In this document: positions 154 through 59,830 of the stretch, in pieces
How positions within the stretch are numbered: position 1 is the stretch's first letter
Layout of the letters: each line of letters opens with the position of its first letter
NCBI GenBank assembly: GCA_012295275.1
Contig: CM022665.1
Coordinates: 4,542,667-4,606,666 of the forward strand
DNA from: Chrysomallon squamiferum
Lineage: Eukaryota > Mollusca > Gastropoda > Neomphalida > Peltospiridae
Length of the DNA stretch: 64,000 nucleotides
Reading direction: 5' to 3'
Made by a program: the position numbers and the translations under genes
Notes under the pieces: model-generated
Told to the model about the DNA's origin: nothing
What the model saw: only the letters and a program-made list of their open reading frames with translations
Databases searched by the model: none

Positions 154-1518
154 ATGAGAATTGCTCTGCTTTTTGTTCTCGTTGCGGTGTTTGCTGTTCT
201 AAACCAGGGCGATGCTTGGGGTCGGTTTCGAGTCAGAATTCGATGGAGGCGAGTCAGAGATTGGGCAAAACGTGCAGCTGTAAACTGGGCTGCACAGAAA
301 GCTGCAACATGGGCATTAGCTGCTGCTGGAAAGCGAGGTGCGTATTCAGTCGATATTCCTATTCAAATTTTCTTTATTATTAAGTGTCCATCCTTGATTT
401 CTTCTGTAAACACATTGTCAGAGAAAATAATAAATATTCCGCTTCGAAAGATTGTTTGACAGTGATTTCTGTTTCCGCATGAAAAGGAAACTTTACCAGA
501 GACGTTAATTAAAAATGAAGAATATTTTGATTCTACTTAACAGCCGGTAGGATGCTCGTGTCCACTTTGTTCATGTACATGTTGGTTATTAAGGAAATCA
601 GATTTTAATGAAATTTATTTCAGATGTTTCTGATCTTGACACCAACATGGACGGATTCCTCGACAAAGAGGAACTTGAGAAAATAATGAGTGAACGAGAC
701 GTTGAGGATTTCATGGATCTTGTTGACGAACACGGTAAATTGTTTCTGTTTTGAAAGGAAAATAATCAGGATTTAATTTGTCATCAAAACCCTTTAATAA
801 AATAATTTAATATATCAGTAGGAAAATGAACCTTTAGTTTAGAAAACAAAGTAATTTAGAGAAAAATATTAGAGTCAAATTATTTATGAACATAGTAATT
901 TCATTCTGACCTGAACAATTTTTCCAAATGAAACACATAGGACTAAATGTCTATTGATGACAAGACCTGTTTCACTAAATTTACTTGGATTTTCAAAATA
1001 GTTACAGCTGAAAAAATAAATATGCCTATTTTAAAATCTTAGTGGAGACTGTCAACGTGCTCGACTGAAGATGAACAAATGTTTTACAAATAAATTGTCG
1101 ATAGTATTGTATTCAGTCTAAATGTAAGAACAATACACTGATAATTATTGTCATCATATCAAAGATGATTTTGTGAATTTAAATAGGTAATACGTAGAAC
1201 AAAGTCTTAAGTAAAATCTGTCCTATAAAGTTCGACAAAACTGTCACTGTTTGATGTGACTGGCTTGTGATGCTGATAAAATTCTCAAAGAAATGTGTAA
1301 CTGGCTGACAAATTTAAATTCAAATTTATGATTTAAAATGTAAATACCATTATAATTTCCTTATGTCATATTTATATTTAATATTTGATGACTTTAAGAA
1401 AAGGTTCGTGTTGTTGCTGTTATTGTTGTTGTTGTTATTGTTATTATTACTAGGAAACTCTCAGATTACAACTGACGACTTTCAGAGAGTTGTCAGAGAA
1501 CTGAACGATATGCAATAA
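154..1518 (+). CDS. A1: amidated cationic peptide precursor with EF-hand propeptide (coding exons 154-337, 624-734, 1454-1518)
   Basis: Three coding exons with GT-AG phase-1 introns give a 119-residue precursor. Residues 1-21 are a signal peptide (hydrophobic LLFVLVAVFAVL, cleavage after GDA). Residues 22-58 are a 37-residue cationic peptide starting WGRFRVRIRWRRVRDWAKR, followed by an Ala/Trp-rich half and GKR, the signal for dibasic cleavage and C-terminal amidation. Exon 2 supplies DTNMDGFLDKEE, a complete 12-residue EF-hand loop; exon 3 completes a weaker second loop (DEHGNSQITTDD) and ends in TAA. The start is chosen because exon 1 begins exactly at ATG after TTCTTCAG. The mature peptide is about +9 and the tail about -14. 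Exon 0 and the promoter lie left of the window: bases 1-150 match intron 0 of A2 and A3. The host-defence role is inferred; intron-exon structure is read directly and repeated in sister genes. Confidence 0.87.
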
Positions 1519-2019: not shown

Positions 2020-3060
2020 AATGTTTTTGTTTTTGTTGATTCATACTTAATTTAATATCTTTTATTCTCAGAAAAAATTGTAATTCCTAGAAGCAGGTTT
2101 CAATCAATGCTTTTGTACCAACATAAACGAGCGGAACAGATATCGTTTGTGTTAGTTGTAAAATGTCAATATGAGCTAATTTTCATGTAGACAATTTTTA
2201 ACAGCCAGGGACGAATCATTATTTAGGTAAGGGAAGGATTTCCGAAACAATGTGTAAATGTTTAGGTAAGGGGGGGATTTCCGAAACAATGTGTAAAAGT
2301 TTATAATTTGTAATTAAGATTTTGCACAATACTAAGAGAAAAAAGAGAAAATAAACTTTTACTTTGCTTTGATTCTTTGTAATGTAGTATCCTCAAAGAA
2401 TGCTGTTTCAGCATCTTGCTCGCCGGTTTGTGCTCATGATATCAAGGGAAGCTACTCCATCATAAGATATTTTAGCCAACGTATTTTTTTCGTACACAGC
2501 AAATCCATTAGGCAGGCTTTTTCTCAGTCGTTGTGAATGAAAGAGTAAACGAGAGGATACACAGACATGTGGACATCAGATTTGTTTTATTTTAATTTTT
2601 TACGTTTGCAAGACGTGCAAGCAGGAACCCCACTGATAGTCTGCGTCCTGCAAATGTAAAGAGAAGATACGTACAAGCAGGAAATGTAATTCTTCCTTCA
2701 ATTTGTTTAGTGAAAACAAATACACGTCTTCTTACTTATGTGCTATTTGCTCAGTATTTTGAAACCAGTTGTTATAGGTGGAAAGATAACACGATGTTTG
2801 TGTGATTGTACTGTTAACAAGATACGAAATAACACGTTCAGAAAGTTAGTTATTGTTAACTGATCTAACAATATCCTGTTTCGTATTATTCAACGAATCA
2901 CAAGTAATATAGACTTATAATTTAACAGACTAAAAGTTTACAAAAACGGTTTGTTAAATCGCAAAGTGTTATGAAATATCAATATTTTAATGCTGCAGCA
3001 TAGCAGTTTAAATAACATTTTATATTAAAAGATACAATATTTATTTCTTAAACATTCATT
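2020..3060. other. A1 downstream flank, non-coding, shared between gene copies
   Basis: No gene is visible. A roughly 36-bp unit containing GATTTCCGAAACAATGTGTA is repeated in tandem at about 2222-2298. The stretch from about 2380 to 3000 recurs after A3 (25600-26230) and C3 (38400-39010), so it was copied with the genes. Confidence 0.6.
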
Positions 3061-3540
3061 ACTGGAGGTAGGGATCGAGTATTGTGTCACGTATGGAAAA
3101 CATCCATTGTTCCAGTGATATTGAACAGCTTGCTGCCGACCTACAATAATTAGTCTACCAACGTCCACTGAAACTAAGTTGACATAAGCCGTAAAATAAT
3201 GGATTTATTAAGTGTCACTTAATTCACAGTTCTATGAATTCACCGTCAACACAGACAAGAAAAAACAGGTGGTGTGGTGTGATGTGTCACTGGAACCTTG
3301 CATATGTAAATCCAATGCTGCTAATTTATGATCAGGACTGTCCCATGATTTATCGCCAACAGAGGATCTTTGGGATTACCTTGGTCAACGCATCTCACGT
3401 CGTCCACAGATAAAAAAGCAGGAAAACATCAGGAGTGGAATGCTGGCTTGCAGAGGAGTATTAGCACTCACATTAAGTCGATGAGAAGACGATAATTAAG
3501 ATGGTGGTCATACGAGATATTAATTTTCTATGGTGTCTTT
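3060..3540 (+). mobile_element. Tc1/mariner-like transposase relic, copy 1
   Basis: A broken reading frame near 3335-3410 reads GLSHDLSPTEDLWDYLGQR, which resembles the SPDLNPIENLWDxLGRR block around the catalytic Glu of Tc1-type DD34E transposases. A preceding stretch resembles the VWxxISLEG region. Frame breaks are present and terminal inverted repeats were not identified. The relic recurs beside other genes in this window, so it was amplified with the cluster. Confidence 0.6.
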
Positions 3541-5669: not shown

Positions 5670-6620
5670 TTATTCCATTTCATTCAGTTCACGGAGCATT
5701 CGCTGGAAGTCATCAGTAGAGATCTCAGAGTTTCCTGAAAAAAAGAAAGAAAAAGAATACATACATATATATATATATATAACAACATGACTAACACTAG
5801 ATCATTTTGTACGAATTATATTAACTGTTCGTTACGCATTAAAGCTTTTACGAAAATAATTAAATATTCACCAAGTTTATCATTTTTACTTGTGTGTTAA
5901 ATAACTTCTGTGCAATCTGCTCTATCTTAAAAACCTTTCGATCCTACTGACACATTAGGGTTTTTTTTTAATTTAATTTTATTTTTCCTTAATGCTGCTA
6001 ATTGGAGAGTGAAAATGTTTCTAGTTTTTGATTACCTTCCTCGCCAATAAACTCCATGAAATCATCAGCGTCTCGTCGACTCATTATTTGTTCAAGTTCT
6101 TCATGGTTCAGGATTCCGTCCATGTTCGTGTCGATCTCCGAAATATCTGTAACAAATAGCTAAAGTCTCAAGTTTTATTTATATAATTTTATTAATAAAC
6201 GACGCTTTTATTACAAGAATTTGTCGAACCATAATCAAACAGAATATATTGAGACCATTTTAAATGTTGTAGAGAATACTTTGTATGCATACATTGTATC
6301 TCTCTAGTTTTCCACAAGCGCGCGCACGCACGCACACACACACACTCACAGACAAGCACACACACACATATGTAAATACTGAAGAATATTTATTTATTTT
6401 TAACAAGAACTAAAGCTAAAACTATTTTAGAAAACCAACCTCGTTTTCCTTGGCTTGCAAGCCAGTCCTTTGCCTTCCTCTTAGCCCAGTCTAAAGCTTG
6501 ACGTTTTGCCCAGTCCCTGACTCGCCTCCATCTGATTCGAATACGAAACCGACGCCAAGCATCGCTCTCGTTTAGAAAACAGAATGCCGCTACGAGTACA
6601 AGAAGCAGAGCAAGTTTCAT
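5670..6620 (-). CDS. B1: cationic peptide precursor with EF-hand propeptide (exons 6620-6440, 6146-6036, 5734-5670)
   Basis: Spliced length is 118 residues. Signal peptide is residues 1-21 (MKLALLLVLVAAFCFL, cleaved after ESDA). The mature peptide of 36 residues starts WRRFRIRIRWRRVRDWAKR and then repeats an octad, DWAKRQAL, DWAKRKAK, DWLASQ, before GKR. Exon 2 holds the EF-hand loop DTNMDGILNHEE. The second loop region, GEEGNSEISTDDF, has Gly at position 1, so calcium binding there is doubtful. The start is the ATG immediately after the acceptor TTTTCAG at 6621-6623. B1 lies tail-to-tail with A1 and head-to-head with A2. Its mature peptide is encoded identically in B2 and B3. Confidence 0.87.
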
Positions 6621-6981: not shown

Positions 6982-7130
6982 CTTTCAGCCGTAGGTTGTC
7001 AGGGAAAGAGTGAATAAAACTGTTGTTGTACTTGGCTACTTTATACTAAATTGGTGTTGTTATTTCTTGTTTGATCAGTGACAAAGTGTGAGAAGTTTAA
7101 TGCAAAAATCCTGTTATTGCAATCTGTTGC
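6982..7130 (-). promoter_or_regulatory. B1 promoter and exon 0
   Basis: Minus strand: conserved GCAACAGATTG...AACAGGAT box (to 7130), then TTCTCACACTT, then CACCAATTTAGTATAAAG with the TATA element at 7050-7039. A short exon 0 ends CGGCTGAAAG|GTAAG at 6982. Joining exon 0 to exon 1 puts GAAAG directly before the ATG. Confidence 0.75.
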
Positions 7131-8880: not shown

Positions 8881-9029
8881 CAACAGATTGTTTTAACAGG
8901 ATCTTTGTATTGATGTTTTCACACTTACTTCTTGATCAAAGCAGAAACAAAATCACCAATTTAGTATAAATGGATGGGCTGCTATAACTGTTTTATTAGC
9001 CTTTTATTTGTTCAGGAATCAGTTCAAAG
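8881..9029 (+). promoter_or_regulatory. A2 promoter and exon 0
   Basis: CAACAGATTGTTTTAACAGG box at 8881, TTTTCACACTTAC, then CACCAATTTAGTATAAATGG with TATA at 8960-8971. Exon 0 ends AGTTCAAAG|GTAAG at 9029. The start site should lie about 30 bp after the TATA. Confidence 0.75.
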
Positions 9030-9344: not shown

Positions 9345-10725
9345 ATGAGAATTGCTCTGCTTTTTGTTCTCGTTGCGGTGTTTGCTGTTCTAAACCAGGG
9401 CGATGCTTGGGGTCGGTTTCGAGTTAGAATTCGATGGAGGCGAGTCAGAGATTGGGCAAAACGTGCAGCTGTAAACTGGGCTGCACAGAAAGCTGCAACA
9501 TGGGCATTAGCTGCTGCTGGAAAGCGAGGTGCGTATTCAGTCGATATTCCTATTCAAATTTTCTTTATTATTAAGTGTCCATCCTTGATTTCTTCTGTAA
9601 ACACATTGTCAGAGAAAATAATAAATATTCCGCTTCGAAAGATTGTTTGACAGTGATTTCTGTTTGCAAACTTATGAAAAGCAAACTTTAACAGAAACGT
9701 TAATTAAAAATGAAGACTATTTTGATTCTACTTAACAGCCGGTAGCATGGTCGTTTTCAATTTATTCATGTACATGTTGGTTATTAAGGAAATCAGATTT
9801 TAATGAAATTTATTTCAGATGTTTCGGATCTTGACACGAACATGGACGGATTCCTCGACAAAGAGGAACTTGAGAAAATAATGAGTGAACGAGACGTTGA
9901 GGATTTCATGGATCTTGTTGACGAACACGGTAAATTGTTTTTGTTTGAAAGGAAAATAATCAGAATTTGATTTGTCATCAAAACTATTTACTAAAACAAT
10001 TTAATATAGCAGTAGGAAAATGAACCTTTAGTTTAGAAATCAAAGGAACTGAGAGAAAAATGTTATAGGCAACTTATTTATGAATATAATAATTTCATTC
10101 TGACCTCAACAATTTTTCCATATGAAACGCATAGCTCTAAATGTCTATTGATGACAAAACCTGATTCACTAAACAAATGATTTGCTTGGATTTTCAAAAT
10201 AGTTACAGCTGAAAAATAAATATGCCTATTTTAAAATCTTAGTGGAGACTGTCAACGTGCTCGACTGAAGATGAACAAATGTTTTAAAAATACATTGTCG
10301 ATAATATTCTATTCAGTCTAAATGTAAGAACAATACACTGATAATGATTGTCATCTTATGAAAGGTAATTTTGTGAATTTAAATAGGTAATACGTAGAAC
10401 AAAGTCTTAAGTAAAATCTGTCCTATAAAGATCGATAAAACTGTCACTGTTTGAGGTGACTGGCTTGTGACTGCTGATAAAATTCTAGAAGAAATGTGTA
10501 ACAGGCTGAAAAAAATTAAATTCAAATTTATGATTTTAAATGTAAATACCATTACAATATCCTTTTGTCATATTTATATTTAATGTTGATGACTTTAAGA
10601 AAAGGTTCTTGTTATTTCTTTTGTTGTTGTTATTGATGTTGTTTTTATTATTATTACTAGGAAACTCTCAGATTACAACTGACGACTTTCAGAGAGTTGT
10701 CAGAGAACTGAACGATATGCAATAA
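9345..10725 (+). CDS. A2: cationic peptide precursor with EF-hand propeptide (exons 9345-9528, 9819-9929, 10661-10725)
   Basis: The 119-residue product is the same as A1 through the signal and mature peptide; a silent change (GTT for GTC) marks exon 1. Mature peptide: 37 residues starting WGRFRVRIRWRRVRDWAKR, ending Ala-Ala-Ala before GKR. EF-hand loop 1 is DTNMDGFLDKEE; loop 2 region DEHGNSQITTDD has His at position 3 and Asp at 12. Phase-1 introns flank exon 2. Unlike A1, the whole gene including promoter is in the window. Its 3' flank (from about 10800) resembles that of C1, not A1, suggesting recombination downstream of the coding region. Confidence 0.88.
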
Positions 10726-11960: not shown

Positions 11961-12505
11961 ATCCAATCACGCCATCCATTACTAGTGGTTCATTTCAAGT
12001 GTCGTATCATCTGTTGAAGACATCCATTATTCCAGTGATACTGAACAGCTTGCTTCAGACCAGGAAGAATTAGTCTGCCAAAGTCCATTGAAACTAGGTT
12101 CACATAAACCCGTAAAATTCTGGATTTATTCAGTGTCATTTAATTCACAGTTCCGTGTATTGATCGTCAACAGAGGAAAGAAAAGAAAATTGATGGTGTG
12201 GTCTAATGTGTCACTGGAACCTTGCATACATAAATCCATTGTTGATGTTAATTTATCATCATCCGGACTGTCCCATGATTTATCGCCAACAGTGGATCTT
12301 TTGGATTACCTTGGTCAACGCATCTCACGTTGTCCACAAATGAAGAAACTTATAAAACTGGAAAACGTACTGCAGCAGGAGTGGAATGCTTTGTTCCAGA
12401 ACACTGTTAGCAGTCCTATTAAGTTGAAGAGAAGAAGACGTTTCAGGTGGCGGTCATATGCGATATTCATTTGCCATTGTGTCTTTTATACGTACATGAA
12501 TTAAA
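11960..12505 (+). mobile_element. Tc1/mariner-like transposase relic, copy 2 (longest open stretch)
   Basis: The open frame 12088-12504 encodes 138 residues with KLMVWSNVSLEPCIHKS, then GLSHDLSPTVDLLDYLGQR, then LENVLQQEWNALFQNTV. In order these match the VMVWGGISLEG, SPDLNPIENLWDxLGRR and LxEEWxxIPQxxI blocks of Tc1-like transposases. The Glu expected in the third catalytic position is Val here (it is Glu in copy 1) and the segment with the second catalytic Asp appears deleted. It is a dead fragment; no terminal inverted repeats were found. Confidence 0.65.
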
Positions 12506-15213: not shown

Positions 15214-15832
15214 TTATTCCATTTCATTCAGTTCACGAAGCATTCGCTGGAAGTCATCAGTAGAGATCTCAGAGTTTCCTGAAAAAAAGAAAAAAAAAAT
15301 AATATATATATATATATATATATATATGAATAACAATATATTTCATCATTTTGTACTAATTATATTAGTTGTTCTTTACGCATTAAAGCTGAGACAAAAT
15401 TAAGTAAATATTTACCAAGTTTATCATTTTTACTTTAACACCCGTGTGATAAATAACTTCTGTGCAATGCGCTATATCTTAAAAACCTTTCCATCCTACT
15501 GACACATTTAATTTAATTTTTCCTTAATGCTGCTGATTGGAGAGTGAAAATGTTTCTAGTTTTTGTTTACCTTCCTCGCCAATAAATTCCATGAAATCAT
15601 CAGCGTCTCGTTGACTCATTATTTGTTCAAGTTCTTCATGGTTCAGGATTCCGTCCATGTTCGTGTCGATCTCCGAAATATCTGTAACAAATAGCTAAAG
15701 TCTCAAGTTTTATTTATAAAATTTTATTAATAAACGACGCTTTTATTACAAGAATTTGTCGAACCATAATCAAATAGAATGTATTGATACTTTGTATGCA
15801 TACATTGTTATGGAATCTCTCTGTTTTTACAA

Positions 15833-15863
<31 letters not shown>

Positions 15864-16135
15864 GACAAGCACACACACACACACATGTAAATACTGAAGA
15901 ATGTTTATTCATTTTTAACAAGAACTAAAACTAAAACTATTTTAGAAAACCAACCTCGTTTTCCTTGGCTTGCAAGCCAGTCCTTTGCCTTCCTCTTAGC
16001 CCAGTCTAAAGCTTGACGTTTTGCCCAGTCCCTGACTCGCCTCCATCTGATTCGAATACGAAACCGACGCCAAGCATCGCTCTCGTTTAGAAAACAGAAT
16101 GCCGCTACGAGTACAAGAAGCAGAGCAAGTTTCAT
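15214..16135 (-). CDS. B2: cationic peptide precursor with EF-hand propeptide (exons 16135-15955, 15681-15571, 15278-15214)
   Basis: The 118-residue precursor has the same signal and mature peptide as B1: 36-residue mature chain with the octad series DWAKRQAL, DWAKRKAK, DWLASQ and terminal GKR. Exon 2 has one difference from B1, Ser-Gln-Arg instead of Ser-Arg-Arg after the first EF-hand helix. EF loop 1 is DTNMDGILNHEE with all usual ligand positions plausible; loop 2 starts with Gly and is probably weak. The introns are phase 1. It is tail-to-tail with A2 and head-to-head with C1. Confidence 0.87.
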
Positions 16136-18497: not shown

Positions 18498-19501
18498 ATG
18501 AGAATAGCTTTCCTCTTTGTGCTCGTTGCGGTGTTTGCTCTTCTAAACCAGGGTGAAGCTTGGCGTCGGTTTCGTATTAGAATTCGATGGAGGCGAGTCA
18601 GGGATTGGGCAAAACGTGCAGCTGTAAACTGGGCTCTAAAGAAAGCAGCAACATTGGCAGTAGCGGCTGCTGGAAAGCGAGGTATGTGTGCTCAATTTAG
18701 ATTCTTATTAAAATTAAATACGTTTTCTTTATTATTATGCGTCCATACTAGGTATTTCTTGTATATATTTTGAAACAGAAAGGTTACCGTTGTCCCAAAA
18801 CTTGTTTTACAGTGATTTTTGTTCCTGCACCAAATTTAAATTGAACCGAATATCTAAAAGATTAATTTACGCTATCCTGTTTCTGCTTCACTATTAGTTG
18901 AGTCCTCTTATCCACTGTATTGTGTATATCTGATCATAATATAGGAAATATCATTTTTATGGAATTTATTTCAGATGTGTCTGGTCTTGACACGAACATG
19001 GATGGATTTCTCGACAAAGAGGAACTTGAGAAAATAATGAGTGAACGAGACGTTGAGGATTTCATGGATCTTGTTGACGAGAACGGTAAATTTATTCTTA
19101 ATTTATAAACAAACTAATCAGGATTTGATTGATCAACAACGGCGTTTAGCGAAATAATTTAATATATTAGTTCTTCTAAAGAAATGACCTTGCTGGAGTT
19201 TGAAAATAACTGCACAGAACTCATGATAATGATCATCATCATATCAAAGATGACTGCTGATAGATTGAGAGAAATTAAATTCAAGTAAAAAAACAAATTC
19301 TGTGATTTAAAATGTAAATACCATAACAACATCCATATGTCATGTTTATATTTAATATTTACTGACTTTAAGAAAAGGTTCGTGTTGTTGTTGTTATGGT
19401 TGTTGTTGATGTTTTTATTATTATTATTATTACTAGGAAACTCTCAGATTACAACTGACGACTTTCAGAGAGTTGTCAGAGAACTGAACGAGATGCAATA
19501 G
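18498..19501 (+). CDS. C1: cationic peptide precursor with EF-hand propeptide (exons 18498-18681, 18975-19085, 19437-19501)
   Basis: A 119-residue precursor. Signal peptide MRIAFLFVLVAVFALL..., cleaved after GEA. The mature 37-mer starts WRRFRIRIRWRRVRDWAKR like subfamily B, but its second half, AAVNWALKKAATLAVAAA, is Ala-rich like A and lacks the third Trp. GKR follows. Exon 2 encodes DVSGLDTNMDGFLDKEE with a canonical EF loop; loop 2 is DENGNSQITTDD, closer to consensus than A because position 3 is Asn. Stop is TAG. Exon 1 opens at ATG directly after CTTCTTCAG. It lies tail-to-tail with D1. Confidence 0.88.
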
Positions 19502-20757: not shown

Positions 20758-21598
20758 CTACTCCATTTCACTTAGATCTCTGACCATTCTCTGAAATTCG
20801 TCAGTCGTAATGTGTGCATTGTCTAAAACAAACAAACATAAATAAATTTTAATTTCCATTAAATATCAAATTTGAAAGAAAAAGAAGAAAAAATCATTAC
20901 CCTTTATTATACATTTTAAATCACCTTAACCTTTATGGAAATAAAAATGCATATTTCAGATTGACACAGTTATTATTTTCTTTCATTTTCAGAACTTTTT
21001 CATTAAATAATTTACATTTGTAATATTGTTTATGATTAATGGTAGACTTCTATTTCACGTTAAAAATAGGTTTACCTTCGTCAACAAGAGCCAACAAATC
21101 CTCAGCATCTCGACGACTCATTATTTTCTCAAGTTCTTCTTGGTCTAAGAGTCCATCATTGTTGGTGTCGATCTCAGAAATATCTGAAACAAATATATAT
21201 TATACATAAATTATAACTGTATTTTCCATTGAAAATATCAACTGACTTGACAGTTAAGGTTTACCTCTGACATTAGATTGTTCTGGATTTTTATTTTTCC
21301 TCACTTCTGAAGCAAACGTGTACGACATAATTCTGTTCAGTAGCTAAAGATAAAAATTTAATACTTTTTCCAGACTTAAATTTTACGTAAACTAAATGGA
21401 ACTTCCTTTCCAGTGCATACCTCGCTTCCCATTAGCAATCCAGTCTTTTCCTTTTCTGTAAGCCCAGTCTAGAGCTTTACGTTTTGCCCAATCTCTGACC
21501 CTTCTCCATCGGATTCTGATACGGAAACGACCCCAGGCATCAGCCTCGTTCAGGACAGCGAATACCGCTACGAGTACAAGGAGCAGGGCAACTCTCAT
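20758..21598 (-). CDS. D1: cationic peptide precursor with EF-hand propeptide (exons 21598-21421, 21183-21076, 20822-20758)
   Basis: Spliced product is 116 residues. Signal MRVALLLVLVAVFAVL..., cleaved after EADA. The mature 35-mer starts WGRFRIRIRWRRVRDWAKR and continues with the octads RDWAKRKA, LDWAYRKG, KDWIAN before GKR. EF loop 1 is DTNNDGLLDQEE, canonical at positions 1, 3, 5, 6, 9 and 12. Exon 2 is 108 nt, one codon shorter than in A-C, which leaves the second loop one residue short (DEDNAHITTDE), so it is unlikely to bind calcium normally. A longer frame begins at an ATG in intron 0 (21634), but the TTCTTCAG acceptor supports the start at 21598. Confidence 0.87.
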
Positions 21599-23567: not shown

Positions 23568-24910
23568 ATGAGAATTGCTCTGCTTTTTGTTCTCGTTGCG
23601 GTGTTTGCTGTTCTAAACCAGGGCGATGCTTGGGGTCGGTTTCGAGTCAGAATTCGATGGAGGCGAGTCAGAGATTGGGCAAAACGTGCAGCTGTAAATT
23701 GGGCTGCAAAGAAAGCTGCAACATGGGCATTAGCTGCTGCTGGAAAGCGAGGTGCGTATTCAGTCGATATTCCTATTCAAATTTTCTTTATGATTAAGTG
23801 TCCATCCTTGATTTCTTCTGTAAATACATTGTCAGAGAAAATAATAAATATTCCGCTTCGAAAGATTGTTTGACAATGATTTCTATTTGCGTATGAAAAG
23901 CAAACTTTATCAGAAACGTTAATTAAAAATGAAGAGTATTTTGATTCTACTTAACAGCCGGTAGGATGCTCGTGTCCACTTTATTCATGTACATCTTGGT
24001 TATTAAGGAAATCAGATTTTAATTAAATTTATTTCAGATGTTTCGGATCTTGACACCAACATGGACGGATTCCTCGACAAAGAGGAACTTGAGAAAATAA
24101 TGAGTGAACGAGACGTTGAGGATTTCATGGATCTTGTTGACGAACACGGTAAATTGTTTCTGTTTTGAAAGGAAAATAATCAGCATTTGATTTGTCATCA
24201 AAACCCTTTAATAAAATAATTTAATATATCAGTAGGAGAATGAAACTTTAGAAAACAAAGTAATTTAGAGAAAAATATTAGAGTCAAGTTATTTATGAAC
24301 ATAGTAATTTCATTCTGACCTCAATATGTTTTACCAAGTGAAACGCATAGTACTAAATGTCTATTGATGAGAAGACCTGATTCACTAAACAAATGATTTG
24401 CTTGGATTTTCTAAATAGTTAAAGCTAAAAATATAAATATGCCTATTTGAATTTCTCAATAGAGACTGTCGATGTACTCTGACTGAAGATGAACAGATGT
24501 TTTGCTAATATATTGTCGATAATACTGTATTCAGTCTAAATGTACGAACACTTCACTGATAATTATTGTCTTCATATCAAAGATGATTTTGTGAATTTAT
24601 GTAGATAATACGTAGAACAAAGTCTTAAGTAAAATCTGTCGTATAAAGTTTGACAAAACTGTCACTGTTTGATGTGACTGCTGATAAAATTCTCAAAGAA
24701 ATTTAAATTCAAATTTATGATTTAAAATGTAAATATCATTACAATGTCCTTATGCGATATTTATATTTAATATTTGATTACTTTAAGAAAAGGTTCGTGT
24801 TGTTGTTGTTGTTGTTGATGTTGTTATTGTTATTATTACTACTAGGAAACTCTCAGATTACAACTGACGACTTTCAGAGAGTGGTCAGAGAACTGAACGA
24901 GATGCAATAA
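23568..24910 (+). CDS. A3: cationic peptide precursor with EF-hand propeptide (exons 23568-23751, 24038-24148, 24846-24910)
   Basis: A 119-residue precursor differing from A1 by Lys for Gln in the second octad (NWAAKKAA), which adds a positive charge to the mature 37-mer, and by Glu for Asp near the end (LNEMQ). Signal peptide, GKR amidation site and EF loop DTNMDGFLDKEE are unchanged. Loop 2 region is DEHGNSQITTDD. Exon 3 has GTGGTC where A1, A2 and C1 have GTTGTC, a marker shared only with C3. It lies head-to-head with D1 and tail-to-tail with D2. Confidence 0.88.
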
Positions 24911-25258: not shown

Positions 25259-26329
25259 ATAAAACAGTATAGTTACAAATGTTTTAGTATTTATATTTAA
25301 TTTAATATATTTTATTCTCAGAGAAAACGTAATTTCTAGAAGTAGGTTTCAATCAATACTTTCATAAAAAGGCAAACCAGTGAAACAGAAATCGTTTGTG
25401 TTAGCTGTTAAAGCTCAACATGAGATAATTTTCATGTAGACAGTTTTTTTCTTTTTTGGGGGGGGGGTTGTGTAGAAGGGACGAATCAAAATTAAGGTAA
25501 CGAAACAGTATGTAAATGTTTATAATTTGAAATCAAAATTTTACATGATACTGAGAGAGCCATAGAGAAAATAAACTTCAAAATTGCTTTGATTCTTTTT
25601 CATGCAGTATCCTCAAAGAATGCTGTTTCAGGATCTTGCTCGCCGGTTTGTGCTCATGATATCAAGGGAAGCTACTCCATCATAAGATAATTTAGCCTAC
25701 GTATTTTTTTTCGTACACAGCAAATTGATTAGGCAGGCTTTTTCTCAGTCGTTGTGAATGAAAGAGTAAACGAGAGGATACACACACACATGTGGACATC
25801 AGATTTGTTTTATTTTAATTTTTTACGTTTGTAAGACGTGCAAGTAGGAACCCCACTGATAGCCTGCGTCCTGCAAATGTAAACAGAAGATACGTACAAG
25901 CACGAAATGTACTTCTTCCTTCAATTTGTTTAGTGAAAACAAATACACGTCTTCTTACTTATGTGCTATTTGCTCAGTATTTTGAAACCACTTTTTATAG
26001 GTGGAAAGATAACACGATGTTTGTGTGATTGTACTGTTAACAAGATACGAAATAACACGTTCAGAAAATCAGTTATTCTTAACTGATCTCACAACATCCT
26101 GTTTCACATTATTCGACACAAATCATATAGACTAGTACGTTTAACAGACCAAATGTTTCGAAAAACTTGGTTAAATCGCCTATATCTTGAAATAACAATA
26201 TTTTAAAACTGCAGCAGAGCAGATTAATTAACATTAATATTAAAAAATACAATATTTAATTCTTAATGGTAACAGTTAGGTAATTTTCTGTTAAGAGATC
26301 TACAGATTCGCAGTCTATGGGTGTATCGG

Positions 26330-27270
26330 TGTGAATGTTCGAACCATGTCATTCATTACTGGAGGTACGGATCGAGTATTGTGTCACGTATGGAAGACAT
26401 CCATTATTCCAGTGATACTGAGCAGCTTGCTGCAGACCTGCAAGAATTAGTCTGCCAAAGTCCACTGAAGTCAACTTCACATAAGAAGCAAAATTCTGGA
26501 TTTATTCAGTGTCATTTAATTCACAGTCCTATATAACTGACAGTCAACATAGGAAAGAAAATAAAACAGGTGCTGGTCTGAGGTGCCAGTGGAACCTTGC
26601 ATATATAAATCCATTGCTGAAATTTTATCATGAGGACTTAGAGAAAATAAACTTTTAATTTTCTTTTATCCTTTGTCATCTAGCATCTTCAAAGAATTCT
26701 GTTTCACCATCTTGCTTGCCGGTTTCCGCTCAAGATATAAAGGGAAGCTACTCCATCATAACATATTCTAGCCTCCGTATTTTTTCCATACACAGTGATT
26801 CCATTAGGAAAGGAAACAGTCACCTTTCAAGAAACATTCGTGGCTCGAGGTAAACGGGCAGAATTTTTCTCAGTCTTTGTAAATGAGTGAACAAGATGAT
26901 ATACACGAGGTGTCCAAATAGGAAACCCAAATAATCCGCCCCTGATAACCTCTGTGATGCATCGTAATGCGAAATGCAATTAACATTAATATTAAAAGAT
27001 GGAATAGAAATGCGTTGCTGCTGCTAATTTATCATAATCCCATGATTTATCGCTAACACTGGATCTTTGGGAATACCTTGGTCATGCATCTCACGTCGTC
27101 CACAAATGAAAAAACTGAGAAAACTGGAAACACGTGCTGCAACAGGAGTGGAATGCTTTGTTCCAGAACACTGTTAGCAGTCCTATTACGTTGAAGAGAA
27201 GAAGATGTTTCAGGTGGCGGTCATATGCGATATTCATTTGCCATTGTGTCTTTTATACGTACATGAATTA
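26330..27270 (+). mobile_element. Tc1/mariner-like relic, copy 3, internally rearranged
   Basis: The left part (26330-26640) matches copy 5 at 39130. It is interrupted at about 26640-27000 by shared flank DNA of the kind seen at 11330-11600. The C-terminal block resumes at about 27010-27270 with CATGATTTATCGCTAACACT and GTGGAATGCTTTGTTCCAGA. The interruption looks like a recombination between two copies. No frame is intact. Confidence 0.55.
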
Positions 27271-28369: not shown

Positions 28370-29187
28370 CTACTCCATTTCACTTAGATCTCTGACCATT
28401 CTCTGAAATTCGTCAGTCGTAATGTGTGCATTGTCTAAAACAAACAAACAAACATAAATAAATTATAATATCCATTAAATATCAAATTTGAAAGAAAAAG
28501 AAGAAAAAAGTCATTACCCTTTATTATTCATTTTAATTCATCTTAATCTTTACGGAAATAAAAATGCATATTTCAGATTGACACAGTTATTATTTTCTTT
28601 CTTTTTCAGAAGTAATCTGAATATTTTTTCATTAAATAATTTACACTTGTAATATCGTTTATGATTAAAGGTACATTTCTATTTCACGTTAAAAATAGGT
28701 TTACCTTCGTCAACAAGAGCCAACAAATCCTCAGCATCTCGACGACTCATTATTTTCTCAAGTTCTTCTTGGTCTAAGAGTCCATCATTGTTGGTGTCGA
28801 TCTCAGAAATATCTGACACAAATATATATATTATATATAAATTAGAACTGTATTTTTACATAGAAAAGATCAACTGACCTGACAGTTTATGTTTAGTTCT
28901 GAGACTAAATTGTTCTTGATTGATATTTTTCATATCCTCAGTTCTTAAGCAAAAGTGTACGACGTAATTCTTTACAGTAGCTAAAGATAAAAATTTAATT
29001 ATTTTTTTCTGAACTTAAATTTAACGTAAACTAAGTGCGTACCTCGCTTGTCATTCGCAATCAATGACATTAGTTTTGCGCAACCCCAGTCTACAGCTTT
29101 TCTTTTCAACGAGTCTAGTAAGAATGCATCAGCCTCGATCAGTACAGCGAATACCACTACGAGTACAAGGAGCAGGGCAACTCTCAT
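28370..29187 (-). CDS. D2: divergent D-type precursor, cationic block lost (exons 29187-29043, 28812-28705, 28434-28370)
   Basis: The frame is open and spliceable, giving 105 residues. The signal peptide is D-type (MRVALLLVLVVVFAVLIEADA). The mature part is FLLDSLKRKAVDWGC..., so the Arg/aromatic N-terminal block of the family is absent and exon 1 is 33 nt shorter than in D1. A single Cys appears. The amidation Gly before KR is Asp (NDKR), so amidation is not expected. Charge falls to about +2. The EF-hand part (DTNNDGLLDQEE, then the short second loop) is the same as D1. No D-type promoter or exon 0 was found upstream to 30300. It may be neofunctionalised or dying; the intact frame argues against long decay. 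Confidence 0.68.
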
Positions 29188-30704: not shown

Positions 30705-31199
30705 ATGAGAATTGCTTTCCTCTTTGTTCTCGTTGCGGTGTTTGCTCTTCTAAACCAGGGTGAAGCTTGGCGTCGGTTTCGTATTAGAATTCGATGGAGG
30801 CGAGTCAGAGATTGGGCAAAACGTGCAGCTGTAAACTGGGCTCTAAAGAAAGCAGCAACATTGGCAGTAGCGGCTGCTGGAAAGCGAGGTATGTGTGCTC
30901 AATTTAGATTCTTATTAAAATTAAATACGTTTTCTTTATTATTATGCGTCCATACTAGCTATTTCTTGTATATATTTTGAAACAGAAAGTCTACTGCTGT
31001 CCCAAAACTTGTTTTACAGTGATTTATGTCAAAGACAGGAAATCTAATTTTTAAGGAATTTATTTCAGATGTATCTGGTCTTGACACGAACATGGACGGA
31101 TTTCTCGACAAAGAGGAACTTGAGAAAATAATGAGTGAACGAGACGTTGAGGATTTCATGGATCTTGTTGACGAGAACGGTAAATTTATTCTTAATTAA
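30705..31199 (+). pseudogene. C2: C-type precursor lacking exon 3 (exons 30705-30888, 31069-31179; retained-intron stop at 31197-31199)
   Basis: Exons 1 and 2 are intact and encode the same signal peptide, mature 37-mer and first EF loop as C1. Exon 3 and the family's usual 3' exon are missing: intron 2 matches C3 up to about 31433 (AAATCTGTCATATAA), then jumps to the sequence that normally lies after exon 3 (TCTTTTTAAAGTGTCTGTC). If intron 2 is simply retained, the frame adds Gly-Lys-Phe-Ile-Leu-Asn and stops at 31197, giving 104 residues with an intact secreted peptide but no second EF-hand. Promoter and exon 0 are intact, so it could still be expressed; I class it as a truncated copy. Confidence 0.75.
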
Positions 31200-33706: not shown

Positions 33707-34595
33707 TTATTCCATTTCATTCAGTTCACGGAGCATTCGCTGGAAGTCATCAGTAGAGATCTCAGAGTTTCCTGAAAAAAAGAAAAAAAAATACATACAT
33801 ATATATATATATAAAACAATATGAATAATAATATATTTCATCATTTTGTACTAATTATATTAGTTGTTCGTCACACATTAAAGTTGAGACGAAAATAAGT
33901 AAATATTCACCAAGTTTATCATTTTTACTTTAACACCCGTGTGATTTTATTTTTCCTTAATGCTACTAATTGGAGAGTGAAAATGTTTCTAGTTTTTGTT
34001 TACCTTCCTCGCCAATAAATTCCATGAAATCATCAGCGTCTCGTCGACTCATTATTTGTTCAAGTTCTTCATGGTTCAGGATTCCGTCCATGTTCGTGTC
34101 GATCTCCGAAATATCTGTAACAAATAGCTAAAGTCTAAAGTTTTTATTTATATAATTTTATTAATAAACGACGCTTTTATTGCAAGAATTTGTCGAACCA
34201 TAATCAAATAGAATATATTGAGACCATTTTAAATGTTGTAGAGAATACTTTGTATGCATACATTCTTACGGACTCTCTGTTTTTACACACACACACAAAC
34301 AAACACACACATACACACATACACTCACACACACACACACACATATGTAAATACTGAAGATTGTTTATTCATTTTTAACAAGAACTAAAGCTAAAACTAT
34401 TTTAGAAAACCAACCTCGTTTTCCTTGGCTTGCAAGCCAGTCCTTTGCCTTCCTCTTAGCCCAGTCTAAAGCTTGACGTTTTGCCCAGTCCCTGACTCGC
34501 CTCCATCTGATTCGAATACGAAACCGACGCCAAGCATCGCTCTCGTTTAGAAAACAGAATGCCGCTACGAGTACAAGAAGCAGAGCAAGTTTCAT
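33707..34595 (-). CDS. B3: cationic peptide precursor with EF-hand propeptide (exons 34595-34415, 34114-34004, 33771-33707)
   Basis: A 118-residue precursor with signal and mature peptide matching B1 and B2. Mature 36-mer: WRRFRIRIRWRRVRDWAKR followed by octads LDWAKRKA and KDWLASQ, then GKR. EF loop 1 DTNMDGILNHEE; second loop region begins Gly-Glu-Glu-Gly and is degenerate. A longer open frame starts at 34730 in intron 0, but the CAG|ATG acceptor at 34595 is conserved in all B genes and fixes the start. It lies tail-to-tail with truncated C2 and head-to-head with C3. Confidence 0.87.
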
Positions 34596-36593: not shown

Positions 36594-37659
36594 ATGAGAA
36601 TTGCTTTCCTCTTTGTGCTCGTTGCGGTGTTTGCTGTTCTAAACCAGGGTGAAGCTTGGCGTCGGTTTCGTATTAGAATTCGATGGAGGCGAGTCAGAGA
36701 TTGGGCAAAACGTGCAGCTGTAAACTGGGCTCTAAAGAAAGCAGCAACATTGGCAGTAGCGGCTGCTGGAAAGCGAGGTATGTGTTCTCAATTTAGATTC
36801 TTATTAAAATTAAATACGTTTTCTTTATTATTATGCGTCCATACTAGGTATTTCTTGTATATATTTTGAAACAGAAAGGTTACCGTTGTCCCAAAACTTG
36901 TTTTACAGTGATTTTTGTTCCAGCATCAAAGTTAAATTGAACCGAATTTCTAAAAGGTTAATTTACGCTATCCTGTTTCTGCTTCACTATTAGTTGAGTC
37001 CTCTTATCCACTGTATTGTGTATATATGATCATAATATAGGAAATATCATTTTTAAGGAATTTATTTCAGATGTGTCTGGTCTTGACACGAACATGGACG
37101 GATTTCTCGACAAAGAGGAACTTGAGAAAATAATGAGTGAACGAGACGTTGAGGATTTCATGGCTCTTGTTGACGAGAATGGTAAATTTATTCTTAATTT
37201 ATAAAAAAAAAAACCTAATCAGGATTTGATTGATCAACAACGGCGTTTAGCGAAATAATTTAATATATTAGTTCTTCTAAACAAATGACATTGCTGGAGT
37301 TTGAAAATAACAGAACAGAAAACATGATAATGATTTTCAGCATATCAAAAATGATTATATTTATTCAAAGAGGGATTATGGAGAAGAAATTAAAGTAAAA
37401 CAACCAAGTAAAATCTGTCATATAAAGTTCAACAACAGTCACTGTTTGAAATGATTGGCTTATGACTGCTGATAAAATTCTGAGACAGATTTCTTATCGC
37501 CTGAGAGAATTTAAATTCAAGTAAAAATACAAATTCTGTAATATTATATTTACTCACTACTACTACTACTACTTATTATTATTATTATTACTAGGAAACT
37601 CTCAGATTACAACTGACGACTTTCAGAGAGTGGTCAGAGAACTGAACGAGATGCAATAA
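36594..37659 (+). CDS. C3: cationic peptide precursor with EF-hand propeptide (exons 36594-36777, 37071-37181, 37595-37659)
   Basis: A 119-residue precursor with the C-type mature 37-mer (WRRFRIRIRWRRVRDWAKR, then AAVNWALKKAATLAVAAA) and GKR. EF loop 1 is DTNMDGFLDKEE; the linker reads FMALVDENG (Ala for Asp compared with C1). Exon 3 carries the GTGGTC marker of A3, and the DNA beyond it follows A3, so the gene looks mosaic: C-type to intron 2, A3-type from exon 3 on. It lies tail-to-tail with D3. Confidence 0.88.
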
Positions 37660-41291: not shown

Positions 41292-42134
41292 CTACTCCAT
41301 TTCACTTAGATCTCTGACCATTCTCTGAAATTCGTCAGTCGTAATGTGTGCATTGTCTAAAACGAACAAACAAACATAAATAAATTATAATGTCCATTAA
41401 ATATCAAATTTGAAAGGAAAAGAAGAAAACAGTCATTACTCTTTACTGTACTTTTTAAAGCACCTTAATCTTTACGGAAATAAAAATGCATATTTCAGAT
41501 AGACACAGTTATTATTTTCTTTCTTTTTCAGAAGTAATCTGAATATTTTTTCATTAAATAATTTACACTTGTAATATCGTTTATGATTAATGGTAGATTT
41601 CTATTTCACGTTAAAAATAGGTTTACCTTCGTCAACAAGAGCCAACAAATCCTCAGCATCTCGACGACTCATTATTTTCTCAAGTTCTTCTTGGTCTAAG
41701 AGTCCATCATTGTTGGTGTCGATCTCGGAAACATCTGAAACAAATATATATTATACATAAATTAGAACTGTATTTTTACATAGAAAATATCAACTGACCT
41801 GACAGTTAAAGTTTAGTTCTGACACTAAAATGATGTTGAGTTCTTAAGCAAAAGTGAACGACGTAATTCTGTTCAGAAGCTAAAGGTAATTTTTTAATAC
41901 TTTTTCCAGACTTAAATTTAACTTAAACTACATGGAACTTCCTTTCCAGTGCATACCTCGCTTCCCATTAGCAATCCAGTCTTTTCCTTTTCTGTAAGCC
42001 CAGTCTAGAGCTTTACGTTTTGCCCAATCTCTGACCCTTCTCCATCGGATTCTGATACGGAAACGACCCCAGGCATCAGCCTCGTTCAGGACAGCGAATA
42101 CCGCTACGAGTACAAGGAGCAGGGCAACTCTCAT
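41292..42134 (-). CDS. D3: cationic peptide precursor with EF-hand propeptide (exons 42134-41957, 41734-41627, 41356-41292)
   Basis: A 116-residue precursor with the same signal and mature 35-mer as D1 (WGRFRIRIRWRRVRDWAKR, then LDWAYRKG, KDWIAN, GKR). Exon 2 starts DVSEIDTNNDGLLDQEE (Val for Ile compared with D1) with a canonical first loop; the second loop is one residue short, as in D1. The start is after TTCTTCAG at 42135-42142. The 178-nt first exon and phase-1 introns match D1. It lies head-to-head with the gutted A-type copy at 43.4 kb. Confidence 0.87.
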
Positions 42135-46109: not shown

Positions 46110-46917
46110 CTATTCCATTTCACTCAGATCTCTGACCATTCTCTGAAATTCGTCAGTTGTAATGTGTGTATTGTCTAAAACAAACAAACATAAATAAATT
46201 ATAATGTCCTCTAAGTATGAGCTCTCAAAGAATAATAAAAAAAATATTATTTACCTATTTTAAATAGAAATATCTATTTTTGATAATAATAATAATAATA
46301 ATAATAATAATTAATAATAATAATAATAAAAATTATTATTATCTTATCCCTTTTAGAACAAATCTAAAGATTTTCCTTAAATATCTTACACTTGTAATAT
46401 TCTTTATCATTAATACTAAATGTTTATTTAAGAATATTTTCACCTCCGTCAACAAGAGCCAACAAATCCTCAGCATCTCGACGACTCATTATTTTCTCAA
46501 GTTCTTCTTGGTCTAACAGTCCATCATTGTTGGTGTCGATCTCGGAAATATCTGAAACAAATATATATTATACATAAATTAGAACTGTATTTAATTCTGA
46601 CATGAGATTGTGGTTGATTGTTATTTCTCACATACTCTCATTTCTTAAGCATGGTGACTGAACTTCAGTTTAAAAATCTGATGATTTTTCTCAACTTAAA
46701 TTTAACGTGAACTAAATGGATATCCCGTTCCAGTGCATACCTCGCTTCCCTCTCGCAATCCAGTCTTTTCCTCTTCTGTAAGCCCAGTCTAGAGCTTTAC
46801 GTTTTGCCCAATCTCTGACCTTTCTCCATCGGATTCTGATACGAAACGACGCCAGGCATCAGCCTCGTTCAGGACAGCGAATACCGCTACGAGTACAAGG
46901 AGCAGGGCAACTCTCAT
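46110..46917 (-). pseudogene. D4: frameshifted D-type copy (exons 46917-46741, 46551-46444, 46174-46110)
   Basis: Signal peptide as D1. Exon 1 is 177 nt instead of 178: one base is missing in the mature-peptide region just after Trp-Arg-Arg-Phe, so the frame shifts and stops at a TAG about 18 codons later. Exon 2 (108 nt) and exon 3 keep good splice sites (donor GAG|GTG is changed from GTA) and an otherwise open EF-hand frame. The promoter is present. An assembly error could mimic this lesion, since a single base is involved. Confidence 0.78.
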
Positions 46918-49734: not shown

Positions 49735-50957
49735 ATGAGAATTGCTCTGCTTTTTGTTCTCGTTGCGGTGTTTGCTGTTCTAAACCAGGGCGATGCTTGG
49801 CGTCGGTTTCGAGTCAGAATTCGATGGAGGCGAGTCAGAGATTGGGCAAAACGTGCAGCTGTAAACTGGGCTGCAAAGAAAGCTGCAGCATGGGCATTAG
49901 CTGCTGCTGGAAAGCGAGGTGCGTATTCAGTCGATATTCCTATTAAACTTTTCTTTATTATTAAGTGTTCATCCTTGATTTCTTCTGTAAATACATTGTC
50001 AGAGGAAATAATAAATATTCCGCTTCGAAAAATTGTTTGATAATGATTTCTATTTGCGCGTGAATCGCAAACTTTAACAGAAACGTTAATTAAAAATGAA
50101 GACTATTTTCATTCTACTTAACAGCCGGTAGGTTGGTCGTTTTCAATTTATTCATGTACATGTTGGTTATTAAGGAAATCAGATTTTAATGAAATTTATT
50201 TTAGATGTTTCTGATCTTGACACCAACATGGACGGATTCCTCGACAAAGAGGAACTTGAGAAAATAATGAGTGAACGAGACGTTGAGGATTTCATGGATC
50301 TTGTTGACGAACACGGTAAAAAATATTATTTCTTTTAAAAAGATTTTCAATAGTTGTCACCGAAAACACAAACCCATGAACATTTGAATTTCGCAAAGAG
50401 ATATAAAAATGTTTCTGTGTTTAAATGTATATTTCGAAAGGTCAACTGATAAACTGATATATGTTAGCAGTAGTAACTATCAATATGCTCTGCCGAAGAA
50501 CAAACATTTTACAAATACAAAAATCTCTGATAGTATTCTATTCAGTCTAATTTTAGGAATACTTCACTAATAATTATTGTCATCATATCAAAGATGATTT
50601 TGTGAATTTAAATAGGTAATACGTAGAACAAAGACTTAAATAAAATCTGTCCTATAAAGATCGATAAAACTGTCACTGTTTGAGGTGACTGGCTTGTGAC
50701 TGCTGATAAAATTCTAGAAGAAATGTGTAAATGGCTGACATACTTTAAATTCAAGTTTATGATCTAAAATGTAAAACCATTACAATGTCCTTATGTCATG
50801 TTTATATTTAATATTTGATGACTTTAAGAAAAGGTTCGTGTTGTTGCTGTTATTGTTGTTGTTGTTGATGTTGGTTTTATTATTACTACCAGGAAACTCT
50901 CAGATTACAACTGACGACTTTCAGAGAGTTGTCAGAGAACTGAACGAGATGCAATGA
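49735..50957 (+). CDS. A4: cationic peptide precursor with EF-hand propeptide (exons 49735-49918, 50205-50315, 50893-50957)
   Basis: A 119-residue precursor. Compared with A1 the mature peptide begins WRRFRVRIRW (Arg for Gly at position 2) and has Lys for Gln and Ala for Thr in the second half, making it the most basic A peptide. Signal, GKR site and EF loop DTNMDGFLDKEE are conserved. The exon 2 acceptor is TTTTAG rather than TTTCAG. Stop is TGA, unlike TAA in A1-A3. The promoter is C-like and intron 2 has diverged, while exon 1 stays almost identical to A1. Confidence 0.88.
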
Positions 50958-55222: not shown

Positions 55223-55657
55223 ATGAGATTTGCTTTCCTCCTTGCATTCGTTGTGGTAGTCGTCGTGGTAAGTGAGGCGGACGCTTGGCCTAGGCATCAT
55301 CGTCGATGGAGGTTTTCCAGACCCTGGATTAAACCCTGGACTCACCGAAAAGTAAAAGATTGGATTGCGAAAGGGAAGCGAGGTTTGTACCGATATAATC
55401 CAAGACACTGGCAAGTATTAAAGTTAAAGTTTCATATGTCAGTCAATATATTAATATATATAAACTTATTTATAGTTTTTAAATTAATTTAATACCTATT
55501 AGATTTCACACTTTGTTTTGAAAATAAACATCAGTTTCCTGAAGTTGAATATCCTGAATATCAAACATCCTGATGTCTCATTATATAAAGACTAAAAACT
55601 AGGACCTATTATACACATCATTATTACTGCATTAAAATAAAAATACTAGAGTTAAAA

Positions 55658-55688
<31 letters not shown>

Positions 55689-55711
55689 CAGTAATAGCAG
55701 TAGTAGTAGTA

Positions 55712-55769
<58 letters not shown>

Positions 55770-56155
55770 TAGTAGTAGTAATAATAATAATAGCAGCAAC
55801 AAAAGAAACAACAATAATAATAAATAGAAATGCTCATTATACTGAACACGTTAATGACAGTCTAACTACACAATAACTTTTATGTTTGTTTGTTTTTTGT
55901 ATATAAAACTACGACTTATAATCTAGTTTACAAATATAATCTTACAAGGACATTTCAGAGCTCGACGCCATCTCAGATAGACTCGTAGGTCAAGAACTTG
56001 AGAACATAATGAGTCGTCGAAATGCTGAGGATTCGTTGGAAATGATGGACGAAGAAGGTAAATATATTTTGGATTTATGTAAATTTTAAAGAAATGCTTT
56101 AATCGTGAACAATTTAAGGGGAATTTGTAAAATATAAAATTATTAAATATATATA

Positions 56156-56191
<36 letters not shown>

Positions 56192-56434
56192 CATGCTTTT
56201 ACTTGTTGGCAATTTTTTTATTTTATAAAGGTTTGTAATATTTAATTTTTACGATTTTTTTTTTTCTTTTCTAAGTAAGATAATTTACTTTGACCTTTTT
56301 ACCCTGTCATAGATGTAGTATTTAAAAAATAGCTAAAAGAATATATTTTATTTATTTATTCCTTAGTTACTTTCCTACTTACCTATTTATTTACCTATTT
56401 ATGTTATTTATTCATTTATTTCATATTGTTATAT

Positions 56435-56465
<31 letters not shown>

Positions 56466-56556
56466 TTAGTTTATTAATTTATTTATTTTAGAAGGTGCCC
56501 ATATTTCAACTGATAACTTCGACAGAATGATCAGGGAACTAAATGAAATTGAATAG
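55223..56556 (+). CDS. E1: Trp/Pro/His-rich cationic peptide precursor, EF-hand eroded (exons 55223-55382, 55959-56057, 56492-56556)
   Basis: A 107-residue precursor. Signal peptide MRFAFLLAFVVVVVVVSEADA. The mature peptide of 29 residues begins WPRHHRRWRFSRPW and ends KVKDWIAK before GKR, so only the last octad of the family remains. It is rich in Trp, Pro, His and Arg. Exon 2 is 99 nt and reads ELDAISDRLVGQELENIM: the segment aligned with the EF loop lacks Asn/Asp at position 3, Gly at 6 and Glu at 12, so calcium binding is unlikely, yet the helix ELEnIMSRR and the acidic character persist. Exon 3 ends RELNEIE-stop. The start follows TTTTTTCAG. A second exon 3 lies downstream at 58180. Confidence 0.83.
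55655..55826. repeat. (AAAT)n-(AGT)n-(AAT)n tracts in E1 intron 1
   Basis: About 8 AAAT units, then more than 30 AGT units with a few variants, then AAT/ACA units. Confidence 0.92.
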
Positions 56557-59639: not shown

Positions 59640-59830
59640 ATAAAACTTTATTTTAAAATCGCTATTAACCTTAACTTGGTTCGCTTGGAAGCTACTCTTG
59701 TGCATTCTTTTTAGCCTGACGTTTTGCCCAATCCTTGACTCGTCTCCATCTGATTCAAAACGAAACCGAGGCCAAGCATCGCTCTCATTTACTGCAGCGA
59801 ATAGCGACCACTCCGAGCAAATTTTAACAG
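59640..59830 (-). pseudogene. F: decayed B-like exon 1
   Basis: Minus strand retains AAVNESDAWPRFRF, clearly the signal end and mature start of the B type (NESDAWRRFRIR). A 1-nt deletion in the Arg-rich block then shifts the frame (ESDGDESRIGQ), and the signal peptide start is not recognisable. No exon 2 or 3 was found nearby. The gene's promoter and exon 0 survive about 1.9 kb upstream at 61.8 kb, with two MITE-like elements in between. Confidence 0.72.

Follow-up and report, generated by a model that had tools for sequence, protein, structure and literature searches.

Candidate host-defense peptide precursors with an acidic EF-hand tail in the scaly-foot snail Chrysomallon squamiferum

INTRODUCTION

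Antimicrobial peptides include Trp/Arg-rich and Pro/Arg-rich types. In the cathelicidins, one conserved prodomain, the cystatin-like cathelin domain, lies N-terminal to mature peptides of different classes. Among mollusks, the closest described systems are found in mussels. As set out in the available excerpt of PMC8004829, the mytimycin precursor consists of a signal peptide, a mature peptide, a dibasic site and an acidic EF-hand extension, and its gene begins with a non-coding first exon; in the same excerpt, the authors state that the significance of the EF-hand remains unknown. Mature mytimycin is a 54-residue antifungal peptide with 12 cysteines (10 invariant plus accessory cysteines), and its extension measures 75 residues. 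In the myticalins, exon 1 contains 5' UTR only, intron 1 (303 or 340 bp) ends directly before the ATG, and exon 2 encodes the signal, the peptide and the dibasic site before a phase-1 intron (PMC5577615); the extension is low-complexity and anionic in the excerpt of PMC12294457. The nicomicins are polychaete peptides with a BRICHOS proregion, listed before the peptide in the excerpt of PMC6265681.

Here, we analyze a 64-kb stretch of the C. squamiferum genome (the window), whose genes encode cationic peptides followed by an acidic EF-hand tail. The initial annotation knew of no named family with this layout; the mytimycins, which end in an EF-hand extension (excerpt of PMC8004829), contradict that statement, and with the myticalin exon plan they make the layout not unprecedented. 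Like the mytimycins, the snail precursors carry the EF-hand in a C-terminal extension after a dibasic site, and their genes have a predicted non-coding first exon. In contrast to the mytimycins, which are set apart here by description only, the snail peptides are linear and mostly bear an amidation Gly, and the complete tails in the family measure 50 to 58 residues. Membership in the mytimycins was rejected on the cysteines, which the mature peptides lack in all 11 intact window genes; a single Cys occurs in P0003 and in the defective gene D2. With the myticalins and modiocalins, the snail genes share linear, cationic, Arg-rich peptides encoded in clusters (PMC5577615 and the excerpt of PMC12294457). 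They also follow the myticalin gene plan, with a predicted 5' UTR exon, an intron abutting the ATG and a phase-1 intron past the dibasic site. They differ, in a comparison by description, in their third coding exon and their EF-hand region, no EF-hand being named in the myticalin excerpts. The family recalls the cathelicidins in that one prodomain serves many peptides, the snail prodomain being an EF-hand region and C-terminal, and the nicomicins in that a folded domain is part of an antimicrobial peptide's acidic proregion, BRICHOS in the latter and EF-hand in the snail. New are the linear and mostly amidated nature of the peptides, their occurrence in gastropods, and the use of one prodomain for many peptides.

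RESULTS

Precursor genes in the window

A search of the window with the exons of gene A1 found 16 places, on both strands, that hold either a first coding exon or what remains of one; 14 of them were modeled. Types A and C are encoded on the plus strand, types B and D on the minus strand.

154..1518, plus strand: gene A1; exons 154-337, 624-734 and 1454-1518, from exon joins and Pfam; 5' exon beyond the window edge
5670..6620, minus strand: gene B1; exons 6620-6440, 6146-6036 and 5734-5670; Pfam slightly under the EF-hand_1 cut-off
9345..10725, plus strand: gene A2; exons 9345-9528, 9819-9929 and 10661-10725
15214..16135, minus strand: gene B2; exons 16135-15955, 15681-15571 and 15278-15214
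18498..19501, plus strand: gene C1; exons 18498-18681, 18975-19085 and 19437-19501
20758..21598, minus strand: gene D1; exons 21598-21421, 21183-21076 and 20822-20758; Pfam match
23568..24910, plus strand: gene A3; exons 23568-23751, 24038-24148 and 24846-24910
28370..29187, minus strand: gene D2, defective; frame open, cationic core deleted, DKR in place of GKR
30705..31179, plus strand: gene C2, partial; exons 30705-30888 and 31069-31179, exon 3 not found
33707..34595, minus strand: gene B3; exons 34595-34415, 34114-34004 and 33771-33707
36594..37659, plus strand: gene C3; exons 36594-36777, 37071-37181 and 37595-37659
41292..42134, minus strand: gene D3; exons 42134-41957, 41734-41627 and 41356-41292
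46110..46917, minus strand: D4, pseudogene; first coding exon frameshifted
49735..50957, plus strand: gene A4; exons 49735-49918, 50205-50315 and 50893-50957
55223..56556, plus strand: E1, diverged copy, probably a pseudogene; exon-2 acceptor shifted, loop 1 shortened
59713..59807, minus strand: F, remnant of a first coding exon, from the search with the A1 exons

Eleven genes are intact (A1 to A4, B1 to B3, C1, C3, D1 and D3). The layout that the initial annotation had proposed for types A to D, namely, a signal peptide, an Arg/Trp-rich peptide, GKR, an EF-hand loop and a weaker second loop, is preserved in all of them, and GKR, in which a Gly precedes the basic cleavage site as an amidation signal, is present in 11 of 11. 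The A1 precursor has 119 residues, with phase 1 at both exon joins: a 21-residue signal peptide (signal peptides were called by eye), a 37-residue peptide with an N-terminal Trp, GKR, and a 58-residue acidic tail. In the intact genes, the peptide has 35 to 37 residues and a charge of +9 to +11, and the tail has a charge of -12 to -16.

The coding exons of the window genes join in phase 1. In the 14 models, GT is found at 28 of 28 donors and AG at 27 of 27 acceptors; the joins were derived from these splice sites and from homologues, which may be gene predictions themselves. The predicted structure of a single first coding exon is one long helix across the signal and the peptide (pLDDT 76.3, pTM 0.33); exon 2 alone gives a helix at low confidence (pLDDT 64.6), and neither single-exon model was usable. 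Rfam and tRNA scans of the window gave no matches.

Two further observations concern the surroundings of the genes. The E1 region 55949-56059 is followed, about 1.7 kb further on, by an extra exon-3-like piece at 58185-58244. Between the peptide genes lie decayed transposase-like stretches (3060-3480, 11986-12504, 26273-26536 and 39072-39335), which look Tc1/mariner-like and were apparently duplicated along with the peptide genes.

A probable 5' non-coding exon

The coding plan of the earlier gene reading stands, but that reading overlooked a 5' non-coding exon and the wider family described below. In all 14 models, AG stands immediately 5' of the ATG. A conserved block and a TATA box are common to 11 aligned upstream regions of types A to E, and a donor, AAAG/GTAA, follows the TATA box in all 7 upstream regions long enough to reach it. 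A donor in this context lies approximately 200 to 580 bases 5' of the ATG in 12 of 14 models; in D2 no such donor was found, and in A1 the 5' exon is cut off by the window edge. Two examples, in the second of which the conserved block begins at about position 8880, are as follows.

6982..7045, minus strand: TATA box of B1 (7045-7040) and predicted 5' non-coding exon ending at 6982 (donor gtaagg), from the alignment of 11 upstream regions
8965..9029, plus strand: TATA box of A2 (8965-8970) and predicted 5' non-coding exon ending at 9029 (donor gtaaga), from the upstream alignment

Because an AG directly precedes the ATG and the upstream block, TATA box and donor are conserved, a non-coding first exon probably precedes the ATG exon.

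Charge balance and constraint on the peptide

The summed charge of peptide, GKR and tail ranges from -3 to +1 in all 11 intact window genes, and from -5 to 0 in all four proteins from other snails; in D2, which lacks the cationic core, it is -10. Exact neutrality as a family rule was rejected, since eight models of other subfamilies (three of them without exon 3) are less balanced, at -10 to +1 for peptide plus tail without the basic site.

The most constrained part of the precursor is a 19-residue Arg core of the peptide. Among types A, B, C and D, its dN is 0.00 to 0.05 versus a dS of 0.26 to 1.33, one of six pairs being saturated. In the second half of the peptide, dN is 0.14 to 0.79. It is larger than dS for the pairs A-D and C-D; A-C, B-C and B-D show no such excess, and for B-D this half also looks constrained (dN 0.31, dS 2.12). 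Fisher tests of core against second half gave P values of 0.001 (A-D) and 0.0002 (C-D), for two pairs tested and with small counts rounded to integers. The tail has a dN of 0.02 to 0.21 among the window types. Among 11 representatives, signals, peptides and tails have mean identities of 44.0%, 34.6% and 44.4%, respectively, a modest gap between peptide and tail; in 38 of 52 pairs, the peptides differ more than the tails do, the three pairs among A1, B1 and D1 being omitted. In copies of the same type, exons are 0 to 3% apart (D2 and D4 set aside) and introns 3 to 28%; the near-identical exons fit purifying selection or exon-biased gene conversion.

In shuffling tests, the Arg core has a beta-like moment at 160 degrees (P 0.02 to 0.04), and the second half is clearly amphipathic in D only (P 0.025, versus 0.33 in A and 0.12 in B). 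None of P0001, P0002 and P0004 fell under 0.05 in these tests.

The EF-hand region of the tail

The EF-hand assignment of the tail, made from sequence alone in the initial annotation, is supported by profile search. Pfam EF-hand_1 matches A1 with an E value of 7e-7 and 28.8 bits (cut-off, 25.4) and B1 with 23.4 bits, and an EF-hand cut-off is reached by 7 of the 12 full precursors scanned (A1, D1, P0001, P0002, PR, C6 and L021), the other five (B1, P0003, P0004, L009 and C14) staying under every EF-hand cut-off. Without its last exon, the PR precursor has no Pfam match at an E value of 0.01. The reading of a cationic peptide with an amidation signal, whose acidic C-terminal propeptide consists of an EF-hand region, is supported. 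The A1 match begins at position 8 of the 29 profile positions because five residues lie between the cut site and loop 1. This spacer has five residues in 11 of 11 representatives, a set that omits L013, the IR type and P0003; it has two residues in the IR type, and L013 has no loop.

Loop 1 conforms to the EF-hand pattern (ligands at positions 1, 3, 5 and 12 plus Gly6), L013 and the IR genes being the exceptions. In the window, Asp1, Asn3, Asp5, Gly6 and Glu12 are present in 13 of 14 models, the remaining one being the frameshifted D4. Across window types A to D, loop 2 is weakened and falls outside the EF-hand loop pattern: it has His3 and Asp12 in A, Asp12 in C, and Gly1, Glu3 and Asp12 in B, and it is shorter by one residue in D. 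In P0001, P0002, PR, C6, L021 and L022, loop 2 has D or N at positions 1, 3 and 5 and Glu12, without Gly6; in L022, two genes further along the window's own cluster, the loop-2 ligand set is whole. From this comparison, we infer that the EF-hand pair is ancestral.

The tail could instead be nothing more than an acidic spacer, like that of other mussel peptide precursors, its EF-hand the leftover of a recruited domain and calcium binding irrelevant. The weakening of loop 2 in every window type fits such a spacer, as do the low-complexity, anionic myticalin extension (excerpt of PMC12294457) and two subfamilies in which loop 1 was lost or altered and the acidity was retained. Indeed, the L013 tail has lost its loop-1 ligands and in the IR genes Glu replaces Gly6, but both tails remain acidic; calcium binding is thus not required in every subfamily. 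The five precursors under every EF-hand cut-off and the missing Gly6 of loop 2 outside the window also weigh slightly toward the spacer. The pattern of conservation points the other way. All 11 intact window genes and all four proteins from other snails have the loop-1 ligands, with Asn3 and Gly6; other acidic positions drift, and the six precursors named above retain the loop-2 ligands. An alignment of eight precursors has 58 tail columns, 8 of them invariant; these 8 include all five loop-1 landmarks (P 1.2e-5), versus 1 of 14 other mostly acidic tail columns. In 15 tails, the 5 invariant of 38 columns are four ligand columns and one Arg (P 6.8e-5); these P values assume independent columns and unselected rows, neither of which holds, and the 15 rows were picked by tail similarity, which favors conserved loops, with L013 and duplicate or later loci omitted. 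Neither Asn3 nor Gly6 contributes charge, yet both are retained as other acidic positions change, a pattern that speaks for calcium binding rather than for acidity alone. We consider a mere spacer rather unlikely for the family.

At L013 itself (5763-5647, minus strand), the EF-hand loop has turned into a run of Asp, which is acidic and has no calcium ligands left.

A superfamily within the genome

Across the genome (404,604,130 bases in 22 contigs), the A1 query gave 83 matches. The first coding exon is found at 30 places in contig C1:4,535,283-4,726,608, 13 of them in the window by a hand count. At least 56 tail-exon matches, a count that takes in broken copies, are distributed over seven places: the main cluster on contig C1 (31), contig C1 at 4.46-4.48 Mb (3), 5.39-5.43 Mb (4) and 39.28-39.31 Mb (5), and contigs C6 (1), C7 (8) and C14 (4). 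Running tblastn on the fetched loci added three more tail exons beyond these 56. In the 13 first exons listed, AG stands immediately 5' of the ATG in 12, and in L010 the match begins inside the exon.

Very unlike peptides precede similar tails at the fetched loci, with lengths of 21 to 44 residues over the family by the cuts used here. At 4.46 Mb, a Trp/Arg peptide closes in KK or KR without an amidation Gly; at 5.41 Mb, a 44-residue peptide contains 13 Pro and 12 Arg; at 39.3 Mb, a Trp/Arg head is joined to an Ala/Val-rich end. Contig C7 has four variants, whose exons were left unjoined; the peptide has 21 residues on contig C6 and a charge of +2 on contig C14.

The Pro/Arg-rich gene is L015, from position 4076 of its locus (contig C1, approximately 5.413 Mb), and has an EF-hand tail of the same kind; related pieces are a first exon (L016) and a tail exon (L017), both with in-frame stops. 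On contig C14, locus L018 (4792-4679 and 4415-4311, minus strand) has two tandem EF-hand exon copies in one gene region.

Relatives in other snails

A single-sequence search of 5.8 billion proteins gave eight candidates and no match, and the relatives emerged with an 8-row profile built from eight window proteins. Among NCBI proteins, this profile found seven at an E value of 10 or better: three from Gigantopelta aegis (6e-31, 3e-19 and 4e-16) and one from Haliotis asinina (3e-9), all named uncharacterized, and three EF-hand proteins without the precursor layout. The joined architecture, which the initial annotation had proposed looking for in other invertebrates, is thus present in four proteins of two other snails, each ordered as signal peptide, cationic peptide, GKR and DTNxDG, with the loop-1 ligands retained. 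A profile of the first coding exon yielded none confirmed among 94 candidates, and in viral contigs 0 of 171 pattern matches were confirmed. In the PDB, a search without the profile gave two weak EF-hand matches and the profile gave 209, the best 60 of which are EF-hand proteins by name.

Among the matches listed in our literature searches, with subscription literature mostly uncovered, no publication treats the snail family, judged by title or abstract start. By the same measure, the literature on Chrysomallon squamiferum or Gigantopelta aegis with antimicrobial peptides holds nothing on this family, and the peptide-core strings were not found in the literature searched.

Biomineralization commonly involves EF-hand proteins, and the tail itself could be the functional product, such as a calcium buffer secreted for shell or sclerite formation, the cationic stretch then being an anchor or a second, non-defensive peptide. 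We regard this as very improbable: the tails of the window genes fall short of 60 residues and have a single full loop, constraint is strongest on the Arg core, the peptides are Trp/Arg- or Pro/Arg-rich as in antimicrobial peptides, and Haliotis asinina has the precursor too. In its favor, the snail host builds mineralized scales (excerpt of PMC7142155); in the main text of that scaly-foot genome paper, EF-hand and antimicrobial each occur zero times, which carries little weight either way.

DISCUSSION

The order of the parts, the processing signals, the charge and the conserved calcium ligands of these precursors can be read from the sequence. In our preferred interpretation, which we think likely, they are snail precursors of host-defense (antimicrobial) peptides, linear and mostly amidated, in which a calcium-loaded tail would shield the peptide until cleavage. 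In the calcium-rich secretory pathway, the tail would load calcium and fold, and the folded tail would hold or neutralize the cationic peptide. A proprotein convertase may then cleave after GKR, a carboxypeptidase and an amidating enzyme may process its new C-terminus into an amide, after which the released peptide would attack microbial membranes. The tail would thereby serve as a conserved carrier, with tandem duplication diversifying the peptide. Several observations count against this interpretation: five of the 12 precursors scanned fall under every EF-hand cut-off, charge is less well balanced in other subfamilies, L013 and the IR genes have an altered or lost loop 1, the contig C14 peptide carries just +2, and the amphipathicity tests are mostly negative outside the Arg core.

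A membrane-active peptide could also belong to a venom or cytolytic secretion and not to immunity. Peltospirids are not known as venomous hunters, and we hold this reading to be the least probable of all. Peltospirid hosts house nutritional endosymbionts (excerpt of PMC7895826), which further disfavors it; spider cytolytic peptides, the cupiennins, use a similar precursor logic (excerpt of PMC7889660).

Returning to host defense, calcium might have a more specific role. Calmodulin clamps melittin-like helices, and by analogy the tail, as half a calmodulin, may clamp the adjoining Trp/Arg-rich peptide. The basic cut site fixed five residues before loop 1 and the short profile match suggest that the peptide's own C-terminal stretch could be the entering helix of the loop-1 EF-hand; the convertase cut would then break the EF-hand and open the latch in one step. 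The family would in that case be a gastropod counterpart of the cathelicidins, with one EF-hand prodomain and a hypervariable arsenal, working as a calcium latch. We offer this reading tentatively and think it possible but rather doubtful.

If expressed as read, these genes would constitute a large unnamed gastropod family of host-defense peptides, present in dozens of copies in a snail that very probably harbors bacterial endosymbionts. They would represent a second molluscan lineage with the EF-hand as a propeptide, here with linear peptides of several classes, and would make the role of the EF-hand in antimicrobial precursors testable.
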